A stretch of 64,000 nucleotides of DNA from assembly GCA_025966315.1 (NCBI GenBank), contig JAOPUZ010000034.1, forward strand, positions 1 through 64,000. Direction: 5' to 3'. The position numbers and the translations under genes are program-made. Below the pieces are notes generated by a model, which was given only the letters and a program-made list of their open reading frames with translations, was not told the DNA's origin and did no database searches. Source of the stretch: Frankiales bacterium. Its GTDB lineage: Bacteria > Actinomycetota > Actinomycetes > Mycobacteriales > Jatrophihabitantaceae. Position 1 is the first letter of the stretch. Every line of letters begins with the position of its first letter. Shown piece by piece: positions 30,467 through 40,794 of this stretch.

Positions 30467-31255
30467 CTATCGCGCGCTCAGCACGATCAGCGCGGCGGCC
30501 GTGGACAGCTCGCACAGCGCGCCCATGACATCGCCGGTCACGCCGCCCAGTCGCTGGATCAGATGTCGTAACAGCAGCGCACACAACCCGGCGACGAGCG
30601 CCAGCGCAATAACCGTGCGCAGCGTCGCGGGCCACCAGCTCTGCTCGAACGCGTTCGAGCACGCCAGCGCCGCGCCAGCCAGGATCGCCCACCAGACCGG
30701 CGGCCAGCCGCGGCGAACCGTCCCGGCCACCATCGCCCCCAGACCGTCAGGTCGAGCCGCTGGTACGCCGGTCAAGCAGCACCAGGTGATGGCCGTCCGG
30801 CCGATGCCCAGCGCCAGGACCAATTCCCACCAGCGATGGGAACCGACCAGGGCCCGGGTGGCGGCCACCTCGAGCAGCAGGGTCAACACCACGGCGGCAA
30901 CGCCGAGCGGCCCAACCTCCGGCGAGGCCATGATGCGCAACGCCCGGTCGCGGTCGGCGTAGGACGCCAGCGCGTCGGTGGTGTCGGCCAACCCGTCGAT
31001 GTGCAACCCACGGGTCAACAACACCAATAGGGCCACCACCAGCACAGCCACGACCAGCGGATCCAACCCCGTCTGAGCCAGTCCGTAACCGGCCGCCGAC
31101 ACGAACCCGCCGAGCAGCAGGCCGACCGCAGGTGCGCTGGCCATCGCCGTGGCCGCCGTCCGGCGGTCCACCCGTCCAGTCGGCAAGGGCAGCACGGTCA
31201 GCGTGCTCAACGCCAGGCGTGGTGCGTCCAGACGTCGGGTGGCGGCCAGCTTCAC
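30467..31255 (-). CDS. cobS: Adenosylcobinamide-GDP ribazoletransferase
   Basis: CobS joins alpha-ribazole (phosphate) to adenosylcobinamide-GDP at the membrane, the last assembly step of cobalamin. The 262-residue, highly hydrophobic protein has the family motif LHIDGLADTTDAL with its acidic residues about one third of the way in, and MASPEVGPLGVAA. It is the last gene of the riboswitch-controlled operon; its ATG begins one base after the cobT stop codon. With cobU and cobT it completes the nucleotide loop, so imported cobinamide can be turned into cobalamin. None of the early corrin-ring genes is present here. Confidence 0.94.
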   Translation of the reverse strand: MKLAATRRLDAPRLALSTLTVLPLPTGRVDRRTAATAMASAPAVGLLLGGFVSAAGYGLAQTGLDPLVVAVLVVALLVLLTRGLHIDGLADTTDALASYADRDRALRIMASPEVGPLGVAAVVLTLLLEVAATRALVGSHRWWELVLALGIGRTAITWCCLTGVPAARPDGLGAMVAGTVRRGWPPVWWAILAGAALACSNAFEQSWWPATLRTVIALALVAGLCALLLRHLIQRLGGVTGDVMGALCELSTAAALIVLSAR

Positions 31256-31256
31256 C

Positions 31257-32516
31257 TCAGGCGATGTCGTCGATGTTGAACTGGCTGATCGCCGGCCCGG
31301 AATCCCGCTCCGATACTGACGCCTCGCTGAACGTGGCCATCTCGGCCAGGGTGCTTACTGCGGCCCGCAGCAACGGCAGCGCCACCAGTGCGCCGGACCC
31401 CTCGCCGAGCCGCATGTCCAGCTCGAGCAGCGGCTTGAGCCCGAGACGTTCCAGGGCGTAGTGGTGCGCGGGTTCGACCGACAGGTGCCCGGCCGTCATC
31501 CACCGCACGACGCGGGTGTTGGCCCGATGCGCGACCATTGCCGCCGCGGTCACGACCACGCCGTCGAGCAATACCGGTGTTCGGCGGTAGGCCGCCTGCA
31601 CCAGGAAGCCGGTGATGGCGGCGAAGTCCGCGCCGCCCACCTTGGCCAGCAGTTCGGCCGGATCGTTGGTGGAATCGAAGCCCCGGCGGCGGGCGTCGCG
31701 GACCGCCGCGCATTTGCGGATCCAGGCGCTGTCATCAATGCCGGTGCCGCGACCGATCACCTTGACCGGTTCGACGTCGGTGAGCAGCGCGATCAGGACG
31801 GCGGCCGGGGTGGTGTTGCCGATGCCCATGTCGCCGGCGATGAGCAGGTCGGCCCCGGCGTCGATCTCCTGGTCGGCAATCGTCATGCCCGCCGCGATCG
31901 CGCGGTTCGCCTCGTCGATGGTGAGTGCGTCCTCGATGTCGATGCGGCCGCTGCCCCGCCGGACCTTGAACTCCGATACCGACGGATCGGTCTCGGCGTC
32001 GACGGCCATGTCCACCACTCGGACGCTGGCCCCGACCGAGCGGGCCAGGACGTTGACCGCGGCGCCACCGGCGACGAAGTTGGCCACCATCTGAGCGGTC
32101 ACCTCCGGCGGGTAGGCCGACACTCCGGCGCTGGCGATGCCGTGATCACCGGCGAACACGACCACCCGGGGACGTTCGAAATCATGCGGTGGGCACTGGC
32201 CCTGAACGGTGGCTACCCACACGCTCAGCTCTTCCAGCCGGCCCAGCGAGCCCGCCGGTTTGGTCAGCTGCGCCTGGCGTTGCTGGGCCGCGTAACCGAT
32301 GTCGAAGTCCGGGTATTCGATGCCGTGCACCGCTCGCAGCCAGGGGTCTTCGGCCGGCTCCGTCGCACCGGCCGCTTCGTCGCCGCCCGGCGCCACGTCG
32401 GCTGGCCGTTGGCTCACGGCGCTCACGGCGTCGGGTGCAGCCTCGTCCGAGGACGCGGCGTCGCGGGACGGCACGTTGGCATCGTCCGGGCCGCTGGCAT
32501 CGGGCACTTCGGTCAC
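31257..32516 (-). CDS. cobT: Nicotinate-nucleotide-dimethylbenzimidazole phosphoribosyltransferase
   Basis: CobT activates the lower-ligand base as alpha-ribazole phosphate. The 419-residue protein has about 60 acidic, Ala-rich N-terminal residues beyond the usual enzyme, then [48 protein letters not shown] and the C-terminal [14 protein letters not shown] containing the catalytic Glu. The extra N-terminus is low complexity; a later start is possible but no better ribosome site is evident. The start overlaps the cobU stop as ATGA. Confidence 0.95.
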
Positions 32517-33094
32517 GGTTTGTCTCCAGTTCGATCGTGCGGTTCGGACGGCCTCGGCGTTCGGGGCTTGATCCAGGTTGGAATACCGGCGACGAGCAGC
32601 ACCACCTCGTCGGCGTGTCGTGCCAGTCTGGCGTTCAGTCTGCCCATCTCGTCTTGGAACACGCGGCCCGCCCTCGTCTCGGGGTGGATTCCGCTGCCGA
32701 CTTCATTGCTCACCAACAGTGCGGTACCGCCGAAATCGGCCCACGCCGCCTCGAGTTCGTCGCTCGCCTGGCGGAAGCGGGTGAGCGGACCGACCCACTC
32801 GCCGACCTCGTCGATGGTGCGCGCCACCCAGTTGCCGAGGTCGTCGATCAGCAGTGGCCGGTCGGCGTCTCGCAGTAGCCGAGCGACGGCCACCGATTCC
32901 ACCGTCCGCCAGTGCCGCGGCCGGCGCTCCCGGTGCAGGGCGAGCCGGTCGGCCCAGTCAGCGTCGTCCCGGCCGGCCGCGGTCGCCAGGTAGTCCACCG
33001 AACCGGCGTCGTTCAGCTCCCACTCGGCCCACTGTGATTTGCCCGAACGGGCGCCACCGAGCACGAGGGTGCGCCGGGTGCTGGCACTGGTCAT
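32513..33094 (-). CDS. cobU: Adenosylcobinamide kinase/guanylyltransferase
   Basis: CobU phosphorylates adenosylcobinamide and attaches GMP, preparing it for CobS. The 193-residue protein begins with the P-loop [15 protein letters not shown] and has [14 protein letters not shown], where the GMP-accepting His is expected, then [16 protein letters not shown] and [29 protein letters not shown] in consecutive shorter segments typical of the family. Its ATG overlaps the stop of the ECF S-component gene (ATGA), so import and processing of corrinoids are translated as one unit. Confidence 0.94.
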
Positions 33095-33984
33095 GCGGGC
33101 ACGCCCGGGAATTGCACGGCGGCTCCGAACGCGGCACGCCGGGAGGCCCGACGCAATGCCAGCAGGACCGGTTTGCCCAGCACCAGCAAGGCGATCAGGG
33201 TGGACAACGCCCGGGGGACGTCGAAGGTCAGGCCGGTCGTGACGGAGTACACCAGCCAGCGATGCAGGTTGTCCTGCAGTGGTGAACCAGGCACGAACGC
33301 CACCGCGGCGGCCGCACCGACATTGCTCTGCGCGAACGGCCAGAACCACAGGTTCATCACGAAGCCGTACCCGATGCTGGCCAGAAACCCGTATCCGGCC
33401 AGCATCGGCAGTTCGAGTCTGCTCAGTCGTGTCGATCCGGCCGCACCGGTTGAGCCTGCTCCGGTCCCCAGCGCGGGCAACAATCCTGCGCCCAGCCCGA
33501 TCCAGCCCGCGGCCAGCATCTGGAACGGCAGCCAGGGGCCGCCGCCGCCCGTCAGGATCGCCGAGGCGAACATCGCCACGTTGCCGAGCAGGAAACCGAA
33601 CCCCGGGCCGAACACCCGGCCAGCCGGAATCAACAGGAAGAACATGAACTGGACGCCGGTGACGCCGCCGGTGAGCGGGCGAAGCAGGGCCGAAATACCA
33701 CCGAGCACACCGAGCAGGGCCACCGCTTTGGCGTCCAGTCGTCCGCTACTCAGCTGAGTGCTCGCGACCAGCAGCAAGGCCGGCAGCATGAGTACGAAGA
33801 TCCAGGGGGAATCGGCACTGTGGCCGGCGTCGCCGTGGGTGACGATGAGCAGCGGCCAGGCGAAAGCGGCGATGCCGACCAGGGTCACCACGGTGAGGGT
33901 CACGCCGGCCAGCGGTGAGATGCGTAGCGCGTTGCCCGCGTTGCTACGAGCGGATCGGTCGCGCCGCATCGGTCGCCCAGTCAT
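33091..33984 (-). CDS. ECF transporter S component, probably for cobalamin or precursor
   Basis: A 297-residue membrane protein with six or more hydrophobic segments and no ATPase motif, in the position of the substrate-binding S subunit of an ECF transporter. Features such as LRPLTGGVTGVQFMFFLLIPAGRVFGPG (conserved GG and PGRVFG region) and a Trp-rich C-terminal half fit the CbrT-like group of actinobacteria. Substrate assignment rests on its place between ECF T/A genes and cobU behind a cobalamin riboswitch. ATG 33984 is preferred, 13 bases after the ATPase stop. A 17-base direct repeat (GGCCGGACCGATGAC core) spans the junction. ATG 34026 would overlap. Confidence 0.8.
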   Translation of the reverse strand: MTGRPMRRDRSARSNAGNALRISPLAGVTLTVVTLVGIAAFAWPLLIVTHGDAGHSADSPWIFVLMLPALLLVASTQLSSGRLDAKAVALLGVLGGISALLRPLTGGVTGVQFMFFLLIPAGRVFGPGFGFLLGNVAMFASAILTGGGGPWLPFQMLAAGWIGLGAGLLPALGTGAGSTGAAGSTRLSRLELPMLAGYGFLASIGYGFVMNLWFWPFAQSNVGAAAAVAFVPGSPLQDNLHRWLVYSVTTGLTFDVPRALSTLIALLVLGKPVLLALRRASRRAAFGAAVQFPGVPA

Positions 33985-33997
33985 CGGTCCGGCCCCG

Positions 33998-35712
<1,715 letters not shown>

Positions 35713-35716
<4 letters not shown>

Positions 35717-36846
35717 GTGTGCATCACCGGTCGGGCGTCATCGGCGACCCGAGCCGATCGCATGGCGGGTACCGATTCGTAGTCGTCCGGATCGGCCGTG
35801 GGCGGTGTGATCGCCCCCGGCAGGGCCGCGCACAGGGTGGCCAGGAACGGGATGAGCGGCAGCGTCGGCCATTGCCAGGCCACCGCCCCGTTGTCGCCCA
35901 GGTGCGGATGTCCGATCACATAAGCGCAAACCGTGACGACGGCCGGCAGCACGGTCAGCCAATCGGACCGTCCCCAGGATTCGCGGCGGTAGCGGGTGCG
36001 GTGGACCTGCCGGCCGGTCCACACCGACGCCGCGACGGCCAAGGCGGTACCCAGGATCAAAGCAATCACCCCGAGACGGTGGGGTCGGGCCGGATCGATG
36101 ACGAGGAAGGTGCCGGCCAGGGCGGCACAAACTCCCAGCAGCAGTACCAGCCGGGTGAGTCGCCGTAGTCGCGGATCGATGGCGCCGCTACGGCCATATC
36201 CTCGAGAATCCATCGACGCGGCCAGGGTAATCGCCCGCTCCAGTGACTGCTCCAGCACGGGTACGAGCAGCCCGCGCAGGGATCGGATGCCGGTCAGGCT
36301 TCGACCACGAAGCCGCTGCGCGCGCCGCACCCGGGCGATGGATTCGGCCAGCTGTGGGACCAGGGTCAGGGCGACCACCGCGGCCACGCCGAGCTCGTAC
36401 AACGCCGCCGGCAGCAGGTTGAGCAGCCGCCCCGGATGGGCGAGTGAGTTGGCGGCACCGAAGCACAGCACCAGAACCGCGAGTCGCAGGCCGGCGGTGC
36501 CGGCCGACAGCAGGGCCTCGCCGGTCACGGGGCCGCCGACGCTGAGCCCGTCCGTCCAGCTCGGCAACTGCCAGCTGGGCAACCTGAACAGGACATGACC
36601 AGGCACCCTCGTGCCGAGCACGACCTGGAGCAGCACGGTGAACGCGATGGTCACCACGCCCAGGCCGAGCATGATCCGGAACGCGCTGCCCCACACCGCG
36701 CGGCTGCGCCGGTTCACCACGACATAGCCGACGACTGCGGCAATGACCGCCAGCAGGATCGGGTTGGACGTACGCATCGTCGCCCACGCCAGCAACAGCG
36801 CCCACAACCACCAGGCGGCGGGGTGGATGGTGCGGGAACGGGACAT
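35713..36846 (-). CDS. ECF transporter T component
   Basis: The 377-residue membrane scaffold that couples ATPases to the S subunit. Multiple hydrophobic segments surround the two cytoplasmic coupling helices with the EcfT signatures: RRAQRLRGRS (Ala-Arg-Gly type) and AASMDSRGYGR. It is longer than minimal EcfT proteins because of extra C-terminal membrane segments and a polar tail, as in CbrU-type proteins. ATG 36846 follows the DUF4430 stop by 12 bases and its stop overlaps the ATPase start as ATGA. Confidence 0.9.
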
Positions 36847-36858
36847 GGTGACTCGACG

Positions 36859-37776
36859 CTATCGCTCGTCCGATGCGCCGAAGCCGGCTGCGCGCCGCCG
36901 GCGTTGCCCGACGGACGCACCGCCGAGGACCACGATTGCCGCGGCGCCGACGCCGATGCCGACGAACGGACCCGGGTGTTGCCCGCCGCCGCCCGTTGCC
37001 GGCAACGAGAGGGGGCTGGCCAAGGCCGCGGCGATGCTCGGCTCAGGGGTGGTACCCGGCGGGCTGACGGCACCGAGCGGCGTGGCCGATCCGCTCGCGG
37101 TGGCCGAAGTTCGGCTGGCCACGCTCGTGGTCGAGGTGGCCGCGGAACTCGGGTGGAGCGCCGGCGGGGCGGCGGACGAACGGCTGGCTGTGCTCAAGCT
37201 CGCCGCCGCGGACGCACTGGTGGCCGGTTTGGAAGCCGGTACCGCCTTGATCGGGGGCGGCTTCGGACGGGCCGAGCTACGGCTGGGCGCGGGCGCGGTG
37301 TGCGTCGGCGCGGGTGGCGGGACTGCGGCGGCGTCGGCGGAGCTGCAGATGGCGGCGTACCCGACCGCAGGCGGCGGGGTCGAGCCGTCGTTGTAGATCC
37401 AGCCCTCGACCGATCCCGCGCTCGGCCGGTACGTGTCCGCGCCGACCTGGCTGAAGGCCCAGCCGCCGCCGGTGTTGTGCCAGTACGCCCAGTAATCGGG
37501 CAGCACCTTGCCGTCCGTCGGAAGGCCGCCGATCTTGTTGATCAGACCGTCCGTTCGGCGGCGACTCACGCTGGTGACGGCGCTCAGCACGTCCGCCCCG
37601 GTCATGCCGTCGTGCCAGCTGACACAGGCCGTCTGCTGCTGCGATATCACGATGCCGACATGGGTCACCCGGGGGACAGCCGCGGCGGCGCGGGTGGGTG
37701 ACACGGCGCCGCTGAGCACGAGCGCGCTGAACGCCGCGATCGCACCGCTTGCGACCCGCAGATTGCGTGCGGTCAT
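36859..37776 (-). CDS. LPxTG-anchored DUF4430 (transcobalamin C-terminal-like) protein
   Basis: A 305-residue secreted protein. A signal peptide (ending near SPTRAAAA) leads into a domain of about 110 residues with MTGADVLSAVTS, DYWAYWHNTGGGWAFSQVGA and GSVEGWIYNDG, the pattern of DUF4430, the family equivalent to the small beta domain of intrinsic factor and transcobalamin. About 100 Ser/Ala/Thr/Pro residues follow, then LPATG, a hydrophobic stretch and RRRR: a sortase sorting signal. No sortase gene is in the window. Its ATG overlaps the stop of the barrel protein gene. I infer it caps a corrinoid bound by that partner at the cell surface. Confidence 0.82.
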   Translation of the reverse strand: MTARNLRVASGAIAAFSALVLSGAVSPTRAAAAVPRVTHVGIVISQQQTACVSWHDGMTGADVLSAVTSVSRRRTDGLINKIGGLPTDGKVLPDYWAYWHNTGGGWAFSQVGADTYRPSAGSVEGWIYNDGSTPPPAVGYAAICSSADAAAVPPPAPTHTAPAPSRSSARPKPPPIKAVPASKPATSASAAASLSTASRSSAAPPALHPSSAATSTTSVASRTSATASGSATPLGAVSPPGTTPEPSIAAALASPLSLPATGGGGQHPGPFVGIGVGAAAIVVLGGASVGQRRRRAAGFGASDER

Positions 37777-39209
37777 CGAGCTCGGCGGCGACCGCTGTGG
37801 ATGAGGGCGACGCCCAAGCCGATCAGCATCGCGGCCAGGGCGGCCAGTCCGGTCTCACGGCCCAGATCCAGGCCCGTCGCCGGCAAGGTGACCGCATCCA
37901 CCGTCACCGTGCCGGTGGACGATGCGGTGGCGGCGGCCGCGTTGGTCGTTGCCGTCATCGCGACGGCGGCTGAACTGCTGGCCGTTGCAGTCGGTGCCGG
38001 TGCGCTGGACGAGGGAGCGGCGCACAGCAGGGTCGGCAACGCGGTCGCTGCTCCGGTGCTGCTGAGCGTGAGCAGGTTGGCTCCCGCGACTGCGGCAACG
38101 GCCTGATTGGTCGCGCGCACGTCGGCGGCGCCGGCGAACTTGAACGCGCCGAGCGACGCGGGCGCCGACCCGCAGCCGAACTGGTTCGCGGCCAGGTACG
38201 CCAACGGCTTGGTCACCGGGCTGCCGGCCAGCCGGAGGGCGGCGACCGCCAACGCGGTCGAGTTGACGTTGGAAACGCTCGGCGGCAAGGCGTTGACGTA
38301 GCTGCCGTCGCTGCGTTGCTGGCTGAGCAACCAGGCCACGGCGTGGTTGGCGGCCACGGTTTGGACCGACCCGGGGGCGGCGAGCAGCCCCTGGATGGCG
38401 GCGGCGGTTGCGTCGACGTCACCGCCGGAGGCACACACCGTGGTGTTGTCCTTGAAATCATTGGCGAAACTGCCGTCGGCGCACTGCTGCGCGGCCAGGA
38501 ACGCCGACCCGGCGGTGGCCGCCGCGGTGGCTCCTGCTCGCTGGGTCGCGATGACGTCGTAGGTTTGCGCGACCACGCCGGGGAAGCCGGCGCCGTTGGC
38601 CAGGTTGCCGCTCTTGAACTCGCCCGACTCCCAGGTCGCGCATGCACCGGGGGTGGCTAGGGCCGGGCACTGCAGGCTGGTCAACTGAGCGATCAGGTCG
38701 GTGCCACCGAAGGCGGCCGGGTTGCGACCGGTGATTTCGGCCGCCAGGGCCAGCTTCGCGTACGAGCCGGGGTACGGGCCGCCGAACGTGACATCGGACG
38801 GGTCGGCGTAGTCAGCCACCACGGCCGGGGTGGCCAGGTAACTGATCATGGCGGTGATGGCCGCGCCGCCGACCTTGGCGGCCGACAGGGCAACGATTGC
38901 GTCGACCGTGCTGCCGTAGTCCGGTGTGGTGCCGTCGAAGGCGAAGACCAGGTGGTCGGTCTTGAGTTGCGCGCCGAGATATACCGCGCCGGCAACCGGA
39001 TCGCCGGCGGTGGGCGCGTGGGTGGCCGCGACCGCGGAGGTCGGACCGGCCAACAGCAGCGCGGCGGCGGTGGCTGTCGCGGCGAGGACGACGGACAGCC
39101 GGCGGCTCGTGCGGAAGAGGCGCGCCGTCCGGTGGCTGATGATCGGCATTGTCGCGGGCGGCATCGACTGCCTCGCCCAGTGGCTGCGGCGCTTCGTCGA
39201 TTGGTTCAT
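37773..39209 (-). CDS. LPxTG-anchored alpha/alpha-barrel protein (prenyltransferase/intrinsic-factor fold)
   Basis: A 478-residue secreted protein, first gene of the cobalamin operon. After a long signal peptide ending near TSAVAA come helical repeats of the squalene-cyclase/prenyltransferase type: FLAAQQCADGSFAND, WLLSQQRSDGSYVNA and YLAANQFGCGSAPASLGAF. No cyclase DxDD acid motif is visible, so it is likely a binding protein; the same barrel forms the N-terminal half of intrinsic factor and transcobalamin. An Ala/Thr-rich stretch leads to LPATG, a membrane segment and GRRRAR, a sortase signal. ATG 39209 has GAGGAA six bases upstream. The preceding in-frame sequence is the riboswitch, not protein. 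Confidence 0.82.
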   Translation of the reverse strand: MNQSTKRRSHWARQSMPPATMPIISHRTARLFRTSRRLSVVLAATATAAALLLAGPTSAVAATHAPTAGDPVAGAVYLGAQLKTDHLVFAFDGTTPDYGSTVDAIVALSAAKVGGAAITAMISYLATPAVVADYADPSDVTFGGPYPGSYAKLALAAEITGRNPAAFGGTDLIAQLTSLQCPALATPGACATWESGEFKSGNLANGAGFPGVVAQTYDVIATQRAGATAAATAGSAFLAAQQCADGSFANDFKDNTTVCASGGDVDATAAAIQGLLAAPGSVQTVAANHAVAWLLSQQRSDGSYVNALPPSVSNVNSTALAVAALRLAGSPVTKPLAYLAANQFGCGSAPASLGAFKFAGAADVRATNQAVAAVAGANLLTLSSTGAATALPTLLCAAPSSSAPAPTATASSSAAVAMTATTNAAAATASSTGTVTVDAVTLPATGLDLGRETGLAALAAMLIGLGVALIHSGRRRAR

Positions 39210-39309: not shown

Positions 39310-39480
39310 TTTGGAGACGCGCCAACGAGTGGGCATTCCGGCTTACCCACGCTGTTTCGCCCCGGCCACTTCGGGCGCCGGACGAGGACAGCAGCGGGCT
39401 CACGGTTGCGGGTCAGCGCCGGTGTCACACCGGCTTCCCCCGCCCATCGGCGTGTGCTGGCCCCATGGGAACACATGCCT
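39310..39480 (-). promoter_or_regulatory. Cobalamin riboswitch
   Basis: Read on the minus strand, 39440-39397 contains GGGGAAGCCGGTGTGACACC, GGCGCTGACCCGCAACCGTG and AGCC in order, the conserved core of the adenosylcobalamin aptamer. 39344-39329 (AAGCCGGAATGCCCAC) matches the B12 box. The segment lies 120-270 bases before the first gene of the cobalamin operon. A small hairpin AACCC-TTC-GGGTT follows near 39240-39252 ahead of the ribosome site, so control of translation or early termination is possible. The ends are approximate. High cobalamin should shut the operon off. Confidence 0.92.
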
Positions 39481-39545
39481 GGATCGAGGGTCAAACGCCG
39501 TCAGCGCTAGCGTGACTCAACAGCACCGACGAGAGGAAGTCCCAG

Positions 39546-39798: not shown

Positions 39799-40794
39799 TT
39801 GGGCAACAGTGGCTTCAAGATCTCCGAGATCACGTACGGGAACTGGCTGACCCACGGGTCCCAGGTCGAGAACGAGGTCGCGACCAAATGTGTACGAGCC
39901 GCCCTCGATGCCGGGATCACGTCGTTCGACACGGCTGACGTCTACGCCAACACCGCCGCCGAGTCCGTGTTGGGCGAGGCGCTCAAGGGCGAGCGGCGCG
40001 AGTCTGTCGAGATCTTCACCAAGGTCTATTGGCCCACCGGCCCCAAGGGACCGAACGACAGCGGCCTGTCCCGCAAGCACATTCTCGAGGCCATCGACGG
40101 TTCCCTACGACGGCTGCAGACGGACTACGTCGAGCTGTACCAAGCCCACCGCTACGACATCGACACACCGTTGGAAGAAACGATGCAGGCTTTTGCCGAC
40201 GTCGTGCGAGCGGGCAAAGCCCTCTATATCGGGGTCAGCGAGTGGACCGCGGATCAACTCCGCGCCGGTCACCGGCTCGCAAACGAACTCGGCATCCAGC
40301 TGATCTCCAGCCAGCCGCAGTACTCGATGCTCTGGCGCGTCATCGAAGCAGAGGTCGTGCCGGCGTCCGCCGAGCTGGGCGTCAGTCAGATCGTCTGGTC
40401 GCCGATCGCCCAAGGGGTACTGACCGGCAAATATCTGCCGGGCCAACCGCCGCCGGCCGGATCACGAGCCACCGATACGAAGGGCGGCGCGGACACCGTC
40501 AAGCGCTTCCTCGGCGACGACGTGCTGACCCGGGTCCAGCAATTGGTGCCGATCGCGGACGAGCTGGGCTTGTCGATGTCGCAGCTGGCCGTGGCATGGG
40601 TTCTGCAGAACGACAATGTCGCTGCCGCGCTGATCGGCGCCTCGCGTCCCGAGCAGGTGTCGGAGAACGTCAAGGCCGCGGGCGTCCGGATCCCGGCCGA
40701 AGCGATGAAGCGGATCGATGAAACCCTCGGCGAAATCGTGGAACGCGATCCCGAGAAGACGCGTCAGACAACGCCCAAGCGCCGTCCCTCGTAA
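39799..40794 (+). CDS. Aldo/keto reductase (potassium-channel beta-subunit-like), N-terminus disturbed
   Basis: The body is a normal NADPH-dependent (beta/alpha)8 reductase: FDTADVYANTAAESVLGEAL with the catalytic Asp and Tyr, a Lys in FTKVYW, QAHRYD and the NADPH-binding C-terminal end ALIGASRPEQV. Family members begin MEFRYLGNSGFKIS. Here ATG 39785 gives MEFR and then runs out of frame: one base is missing near 39797 compared with the family, and the rest of the match resumes in the next frame at TTG 39799 (LGNSGFKIS). Either there is a real or sequencing frameshift, or translation starts at TTG with GGAA upstream. The substrate is unknown. Confidence 0.78.
   Translation: MGNSGFKISEITYGNWLTHGSQVENEVATKCVRAALDAGITSFDTADVYANTAAESVLGEALKGERRESVEIFTKVYWPTGPKGPNDSGLSRKHILEAIDGSLRRLQTDYVELYQAHRYDIDTPLEETMQAFADVVRAGKALYIGVSEWTADQLRAGHRLANELGIQLISSQPQYSMLWRVIEAEVVPASAELGVSQIVWSPIAQGVLTGKYLPGQPPPAGSRATDTKGGADTVKRFLGDDVLTRVQQLVPIADELGLSMSQLAVAWVLQNDNVAAALIGASRPEQVSENVKAAGVRIPAEAMKRIDETLGEIVERDPEKTRQTTPKRRPS

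Follow-up and report, generated by a model that had tools for sequence, protein, structure and literature searches.

We describe an operon in a 64,000-nucleotide stretch of DNA from a Frankiales bacterium (GenBank assembly GCA_025966315.1, contig JAOPUZ010000034.1, positions 1 to 64,000, called the window in what follows), in which a cobalamin riboswitch precedes two genes of surface proteins, the genes of an energy-coupling factor (ECF) transporter, and cobU, cobT and cobS. By predicted fold one surface protein is an alpha/alpha barrel and the other a small beta protein of the DUF4430 type, and they resemble the two halves of the chain that makes up intrinsic factor, transcobalamin or haptocorrin, a correspondence that the original prediction, made from the letters alone, had proposed and that our fold comparisons bear out. 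In our judgement it is likely that they constitute a surface corrinoid-capture module of an ECF-type B12 importer, built from transcobalamin-type folds and split here into two anchored proteins; put simply, in soil and water actinobacteria this surface pair probably catches B12-like molecules outside the cell and passes them to the pump.

Predicted folds of the two surface proteins

The two proteins and the parts that we distinguish in them are the following.

37773..39209, minus strand: barrel protein (SCO2321-like), with a signal peptide, an alpha/alpha barrel and a predicted LPATG anchor
38007..39017, minus strand: predicted alpha/alpha-toroid domain of the barrel protein, from the fold matches to 3kq4_A and 2bb6_A
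37872..37886, minus strand: LPATG sorting-signal motif of the barrel protein, from the sequence
36859..37776, minus strand: DUF4430-like protein (SCO2322-like), with a signal peptide, a small beta domain, a Ser/Ala/Pro-rich stalk and a predicted LPATG anchor
37336..37680, minus strand: predicted DUF4430-like beta domain, from Foldseek and VIA-align fold matches
36991..37005, minus strand: LPATG sorting-signal motif of the DUF4430-like protein, from the sequence

The barrel, modelled with AlphaFold from the window protein and 36 relatives (predicted local distance difference test, pLDDT, 92.1; predicted template modelling score, pTM, 0.92), was aligned by VIA-align with intrinsic factor 3kq4_A at Z 21.6 and a root-mean-square deviation of 2.7 over 244 aligned residues, occupying chain residues 30-299, and it reached transcobalamin 2bb6_A in row 32 of the Foldseek results (E 2.5e-4). 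When the model of the small domain was compared by Foldseek with 350,542 PDB chains, rows 1-15 were all transcobalamin or haptocorrin, and among them the isolated human beta domain appeared twice, as apo form (5no0) and, by its title, with cyanocobalamin (5np4), a title which suggests that the small domain is able to hold cobalamin alone. VIA-align placed the small domain on haptocorrin 4kki (Z 9.0), transcobalamin 7qbe (8.9) and intrinsic factor 2pmv (8.4), and on intrinsic factor 3kq4_A at Z 8.0, at chain residues 308-417. Since the barrel fits residues 30-299 and the small domain residues 308-417, the window pair together covers both halves of a single intrinsic-factor chain without overlap. 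As far as the models go, the likeness to B12 carriers is specific, by Foldseek rank, for the small domain and not for the barrel; ranked by Z, the B12 carriers are only narrowly ahead, with SAMP1 and further beta-grasp proteins at most one Z unit away.

A passage of PMC4350170 gives TCN proteins a C-terminal DUF4430 domain. Of the two domains that define the transcobalamin family, the alpha/alpha barrel is found in the window by predicted fold, a fold also common to many enzymes, and the DUF4430-type small beta domain is found by fold with the Pfam cut-off missed (E 0.24, 12.3 bits, cut-off 23.8). The Pfam DUF4430 scan of the bacterium's own genome returned nothing at E 0.001, because the window copy lies beyond the reach of that model. 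Homology with two families of NCBIfam is clear from sequence comparison, with membership by cut-off not reached: the barrel matches SCO2321_fam at E 1.5e-31 (109.7 bits, cut-off 300) and the small protein SCO2322_fam at E 1.8e-11 (44.6 bits, cut-off 85). As the scores fall below cut-off, the assignment of the two proteins to their families was also tested by comparing profiles and folds and by the conservation of gene order. In hhalign, 41 SCO2322-like domains matched 20 over-cut-off DUF4430 domains taken from other genomes of the phylum with probability 89 and E 2.1e-6 over 96 columns, the E-value being that of a single profile pair with no database correction.

The best Pfam match of the barrel is SQHop_cyclase_N (E 1e-4, 22 bits, below the cut-off of 26.2), and two cysteines are invariant in all 37 barrels. 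Squalene-hopene cyclase relatives with weak barrel matches (L025, L026 and L028, and from the family search L007, L009-L012 and L015) were set aside; no cobalamin riboswitch was found in their fetched DNA at the Rfam gathering cut-off. A link to transcobalamin by sequence was also tried and given up, as the profile searches of the PDB failed and just fold comparison connected the proteins; a Pfam scan of the window proteins at E up to 1 returned no eukaryotic cobalamin-binding family.

Operon structure and conserved linkage

The operon lies on the minus strand and consists of the riboswitch and eight tightly spaced genes, ending at 30467, in the order barrel protein, DUF4430-like protein, EcfT, EcfAA', EcfS, CobU, CobT and CobS, with gaps at the successive junctions of -4, 12, -4, -29, -4, -4 and 1 bases. 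The barrel and DUF4430-like genes share the four bases ATGA. This confirms the arrangement first read from the sequence, that is, adjacent genes for the two proteins with signal-like starts and LPATG ends, behind the riboswitch and ahead of the ECF genes and cobUTS. The other parts of the operon are as follows.

39311..39481, minus strand: cobalamin riboswitch in the operon leader (Rfam RF00174, 36.7 bits, over the cut-off of 31.5)
35713..36846, minus strand: EcfT (CbiQ family), the ECF energising membrane subunit (PF02361, 38.8 bits, cut-off 25)
33998..35716, minus strand: EcfAA', a double ABC ATPase domain in one protein (PF00005, two stretches, E 5.5e-46)
33091..34026, minus strand: ECF S component, the substrate-binding membrane subunit (PF12822, E 4.7e-6, 27.2 bits, slightly below the cut-off of 30.7)
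32513..33094, minus strand: CobU, cobinamide kinase/guanylyltransferase (PF02283, E 4.2e-47), start codon provisional
31257..32516, minus strand: CobT, DBI phosphoribosyltransferase (DBI_PRT; PF02277, E 3.9e-134)
30467..31255, minus strand: CobS, cobalamin-5-phosphate synthase (PF02654, E 2.5e-47)

A single copy of the 15-base riboswitch core CTGACCCGCAACCGT is found in the window and none in the shuffles. EcfT, the EcfA pair and an S component, the parts that make an ECF transporter, are all found in the window, the S component itself below its cut-off. The closest named relative of EcfT belongs to a Jatrophihabitans metagenome-assembled genome (MAG; 58% identity), and the S component is conserved among relatives at 43-64 percent identity, with a PF12822 match at E 0.01 in 16 of 27. 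An aldo/keto reductase gene at window positions 39799-40794 adjoins the operon and also stands by relatives such as L109, L114, L247 and L312; at E below 1e-80 it was found in 8/40, 1/67 and 13/78 fetched regions.

There are four RF00174 riboswitches in the genome, one of them heading this operon. Others, at G000:C16:36148-36269 and G000:C63:22260-22378, lead a CbtA-like gene, by its name (given by eye) presumably a cobalt transporter, and a corrinoid-synthesis cluster, whose genes we take, likewise by eye, to be cobD/cobQ-like and cobaltochelatase-like. The genome also encodes a precorrin-8X methylmutase (CbiC) and a B12-dependent methionine synthase, from which it follows that B12 is used by the organism and possibly also made there.

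The conservation of the locus was surveyed from three anchors: the barrel, EcfT and over-cut-off DUF4430. Among 394 genomes of the class the barrel profile had matches in 165 and the small-domain profile in 172, with 126 barrel rows and 150 small-domain rows used for pairing; at this listing stage, before closer inspection, a small-domain row stood within 3 kb on the same strand for 82 of the 126 barrel rows. The barrel loci fetched were 30 picked for breadth, another 48 in which barrel and small domain were paired, and 30 rows for which no partner was listed. The breadth set had ecfT in 30/30, and closer inspection found a small domain in 24 of the 30 rows without a listed partner. Among loci with at least 1.2 kb downstream, ecfT or ecfA lay on the barrel strand in 37 of 40 pairs and in 20 of 22 rows without a listed partner; no ECF gene was found on that strand, despite the room, in L239, L261 and L274 of the former and in L297 and L300 of the latter. 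Region L119, anchored on the small domain, had no ECF gene on the DUF strand.

Riboswitches were searched with a model (R1) built from 19 riboswitches of this study, 14 of them from loci L089-L118, so that its 28 matches among those 30 loci (none in L111 and L112) are not independent of training. Outside the training loci, R1 found a riboswitch in 43 of the 48 further pairs (none in L251, L266, L272, L281 and L282) and in 27 of the 30 rows without a listed partner (none in L284, L299 and L300). The EcfT-anchored set, likewise outside the training, came from an EcfT-only scan of named genomes, which returned 67 loci in Streptomyces, Kitasatospora, Kribbella, Umezawaea, Terrabacter, Intrasporangium, Cellulomonas, Acidimicrobiia MAGs and others. 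Where such a locus had more than 3 kb upstream (n=54), the small domain was present in all 54 (that of L133 was missed by the narrower profile and found by a wider one), the barrel in 26 and a same-strand riboswitch in 48, the loci with no riboswitch match being L132, L177, L183, L188, L193 and L194. One or another of cobU, cobT and cobS was detected in 16 of the 67.

From the third anchor, over-cut-off DUF4430 was present in 51 of 296 genomes of the phylum sample, and an ecfT- or ecfA-like gene lay within about 1.5 kb in 27 of the 30 loci fetched. These Pfam-type loci were at one stage considered to be free of cobalamin riboswitches (0/20 with flanks of about 1.5 kb), which was overturned by regions of about 12 kb: six of twelve had a cobalamin-type riboswitch (RF00174 in five, AdoCbl-II in one) and the remaining six had none. 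The rearranged order DUF4430-ecfT-ecfA-ecfS-barrel was seen in 5/12, and four of these five full sets were among the regions with a riboswitch. L316 and L319 had no ECF gene by our queries, and L322 had just an ecfA-like gene on the opposite strand. Taken over the surveyed anchors, the linkage of the module to riboswitch and ECF importer is nearly universal, and the survey did not find the pair occurring frequently away from B12 genes.

Elsewhere in the phylum a large secreted protein heads a riboswitch-led operon (L325:1333-5946, L321:3050-5752 and L323:3433-5991). That of L325 has two DUF4430 stretches and a beta-propeller match, and those of L321 and L323 look propeller-like by eye only. 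It is possible that this protein is a third surface part; BtuG of Bacteroides is also a beta-propeller.

Fusions and circular permutation

The two domains also occur naturally in one chain. In L104:4803-6341 one open frame of 513 amino acids has the barrel and then the small domain, which is the vertebrate order; L021, L091 and L106 have the opposite order, with small domain, barrel and barrel in one frame. Two barrels share a frame in L131, L136 and L140, and near the operon there are solitary barrel genes, each having a cobalamin riboswitch to itself, at L136:11890-12828, L140:12156-13085, L178:11546-12457 and L182:11628-12548.

A profile of the canonical small domain, run against the 72 small-domain proteins of the EcfT-anchored loci L129-L195, divided them into two clean groups of 36. 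One, the canonical group, gives a single-piece match at model positions of about 3-132; in the other, positions of about 78-130 match first and those of about 9-77 afterwards, so that the domain is circularly permuted. Half-profiles cut before the YWxYW motif gave the same division, 36 proteins in the order N-C and 36 in the order C-N, and among 1,440 shuffled proteins none reached a domain E of 0.01 (best 0.081). Permuted domains, for example L155:6960-7964, L158:5861-7933 and L169:7082-7945, include those of Streptomyces, Kitasatospora, Terrabacter, Humibacillus and Intrasporangium loci, and most Streptomyces small domains that we looked at are of this kind, unlike the canonical domain of the window. 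As both halves are retained despite the permutation, it may be argued that the whole fold matters.

Anchoring of the surface proteins

Both surface proteins of the window begin with a signal-like segment, and at their C-termini LPATG is followed by a hydrophobic stretch and then by an Arg-rich tail. Against the LPXTG model TIGR01167 the DUF4430-like protein scored 13.1 bits (cut-off 15.9) and the barrel was not listed; four sortases over cut-off are encoded in the genome. Anchor classes among relatives were assigned by simple motif and hydropathy rules to open reading frames (ORFs) that lie entirely within the fetched DNA. A plain membrane helix at the C-terminus was seen in 87 of 106 small-domain ORFs and a sortase-like tail in 3, the other 16 having neither; for the 71 barrel ORFs the numbers were 25 with a sortase-like tail, 12 with a helix and 34 with neither. 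The wall anchoring originally ascribed to both proteins does not, with 3 sortase-like tails against 87 plain helices in the small domain, hold as a general rule, and judging by these motifs the LPATG on both proteins of the window is unusual as regards the small one.

Proposed function and alternative explanations

We infer the binding, sandwiching and release of the cargo, its identity and the direction of transport as follows. Upon cobalamin shortage the riboswitch, to judge from its class, would allow expression of the operon. The small DUF4430-like protein, on its stalk near the membrane, would be the conserved partner of the ECF transporter, with the barrel protein extending farther out from the cell. 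A corrinoid (cobalamin, another cobamide or cobinamide) would be captured by the small domain and, in forms that have a barrel, enclosed between the two in a transcobalamin-like way with the barrel as a lid; it would be released to the S component and imported by EcfT/EcfAA, and CobU, CobT and CobS would complete or remodel it if it is incomplete. That CobU is encoded in the operon, and also in that of some relatives, speaks for incomplete corrinoids being among the cargoes.

A two-protein clamp around the corrinoid, as the original prediction had it, cannot be generalised: in 28 of the 54 EcfT-anchored loci there is no barrel upstream, the wider profile included, and 11 of the 14 such genomes that were searched whole have no barrel at E 1e-5 (two barrel-bearing control genomes were matched). 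In the remaining ones we found weak partial matches (two genomes) and good barrels elsewhere (Tetrasphaera australiensis). With the small domain in 54/54 loci and the barrel in 26/54, it seems that the importer is constantly accompanied by the small domain and only optionally by the barrel. Fragments of human intrinsic factor for the two domains have been reported to come together on cobalamin, with better binding by the small fragment, which would suit both barrel-bearing and barrel-less forms. It can be asked whether the proteins act apart, the small one as an ECF-docked binder and the barrel as an independent scavenger or store of corrinoids, with no clamp. The barrel-free genomes speak for it, as do the stand-alone riboswitch-bearing barrels of L136, L140, L178 and L182 and the difference in anchoring, barrels being often sortase-like and small domains mostly on a plain helix; yet the two genes are adjacent in 82 of 126 barrel rows and overlap by four bases in the window, and the domains are fused in L021, L091, L104 and L106, so that we hold such separate action to be rather unlikely.

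The loci and genomes without a barrel weigh against the capture module as a transcobalamin-like pair, and some further observations do likewise. Terpene cyclases give the top structure scores of the barrel (Z 25.8, compared with 21.6 for intrinsic factor), and since they fit it better a link to B12 cannot be read from the barrel fold by itself. The model of the small domain (window and 36 relatives) is of moderate confidence (pLDDT 74.9, pTM 0.68), and no transcobalamin was among the PDB matches of the barrel profile, of the small-domain profile or of the Pfam-type DUF4430 profile. The window small domain has Asn at aligned position 54, where 36 of 37 members have Cys, so that, judging from the alignment, it has likely lost a probable disulphide. 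The profile of the S component matched no chain in the PDB, and the substrate is therefore not readable from the S-component sequence. Lastly, with CbiC and a riboswitch-led biosynthesis cluster the organism need not rely on uptake.

The preference of the barrel for terpene cyclases, which shows by structure and in Pfam, could mean that it is an enzyme, either a terpene cyclase or a sugar-active toroid, merely regulated by B12. DXDD is the catalytic motif of class II terpene cyclases; read from the barrel alignment to squalene-hopene cyclase, it is broken in all 37 barrels, the third Asp being present in 0/37 and the second in 18/37. Moreover, the barrel is by prediction secreted and anchored, and in the regions examined it goes together with riboswitch and ECF genes, all of which makes an enzyme a very remote prospect. 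An S component that has no close solved relative and matches general ECF S families only leaves room for some other substrate of the B12 pathway, such as cobalt, the lower-ligand base or alpha-ribazole, with the transcobalamin likeness reduced to a shared fold; CobT and CobS would, by what is known of the pathway, also use an imported lower ligand. We think this improbable, given that CobU acts on a corrinoid, that B12 binders are, of all chains in the PDB, those whose fold comes closest to the small domain, and that a separate riboswitch of the genome precedes the gene which we read as the cobalt transporter CbtA.

Relation to known systems

The corrinoid-capture module shares with vertebrate transcobalamin, intrinsic factor and haptocorrin an alpha/alpha barrel and a small beta domain, both secreted. 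In the vertebrate carriers the domains are in one chain with the barrel first, and a receptor is used for uptake, whereas in the window they are two genes, each product having its own predicted anchor, and the pair, which would bind corrinoid in its turn, is linked to an ECF importer. The SCO2321 and SCO2322 families, named after Streptomyces coelicolor genes and carried in NCBIfam without a function, are homologous to the window proteins and show the same operon order in Streptomyces loci.

BtuF and the Bacteroides protein BtuG also capture B12 outside the cytoplasm, ahead of an importer, but they serve other transporter types, and their folds differ from those of the window proteins. Passages of PMC5997447 present BtuF as the periplasmic binding protein of BtuFCD, and BtuG is named in passages of PMC12713380, a 2025 review on mycobacterial cobamides, which name no protein like ours. 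ECF-CbrT of Lactobacillus delbrueckii likewise has EcfT, EcfA and an S component; the passages of PMC5997447 state that it carries cobalamin and cobinamide and that the S component is the substrate-binding part, and they name no extracellular binding protein of the ECF transporter. It differs from the window transporter in that the profile of the window S component reaches no PDB chain.

In the open PMC literature, covering titles, starts of abstracts and passages, with subscription journals and preprints outside, we found no bacterial transcobalamin-like protein, no function of SCO2321/SCO2322 and no permutation of the domain, and the passages of PMC4350170, PMC2667541, PMC5997447 and PMC12713380 describe no bacterial transcobalamin-like protein or domain permutation. 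We lean, with some caution, towards the view that this is a class of actinobacterial B12 importer undescribed in the searchable literature, composed of an ECF transporter and extracellular corrinoid binders homologous to the halves of transcobalamin, in which the small domain is constant and the barrel optional. The two may be encoded apart or fused, with either of them first, and the small domain is permuted in Streptomyces and Intrasporangiaceae relatives. New, in our estimate, is the form that the two-domain B12 carrier would take here, a bacterial pair of separate, probably anchored proteins that goes with an ECF importer.

The findings bear on corrinoid uptake in actinobacteria, including B12- and antibiotic-producing genera, and the SCO2321/SCO2322-type families would gain a testable function in a tractable host. 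The system would be a case of an ECF importer using a separate extracellular binding protein, and the one-chain form of L104, the two-chain form of the window and the small-domain-only Terrabacter type allow one to ask which half does what. If our reading is true, it links the origin of vertebrate B12 carriers to a bacterial operon, and an old uptake module of bacteria would then live on in these carriers in fused, soluble form.

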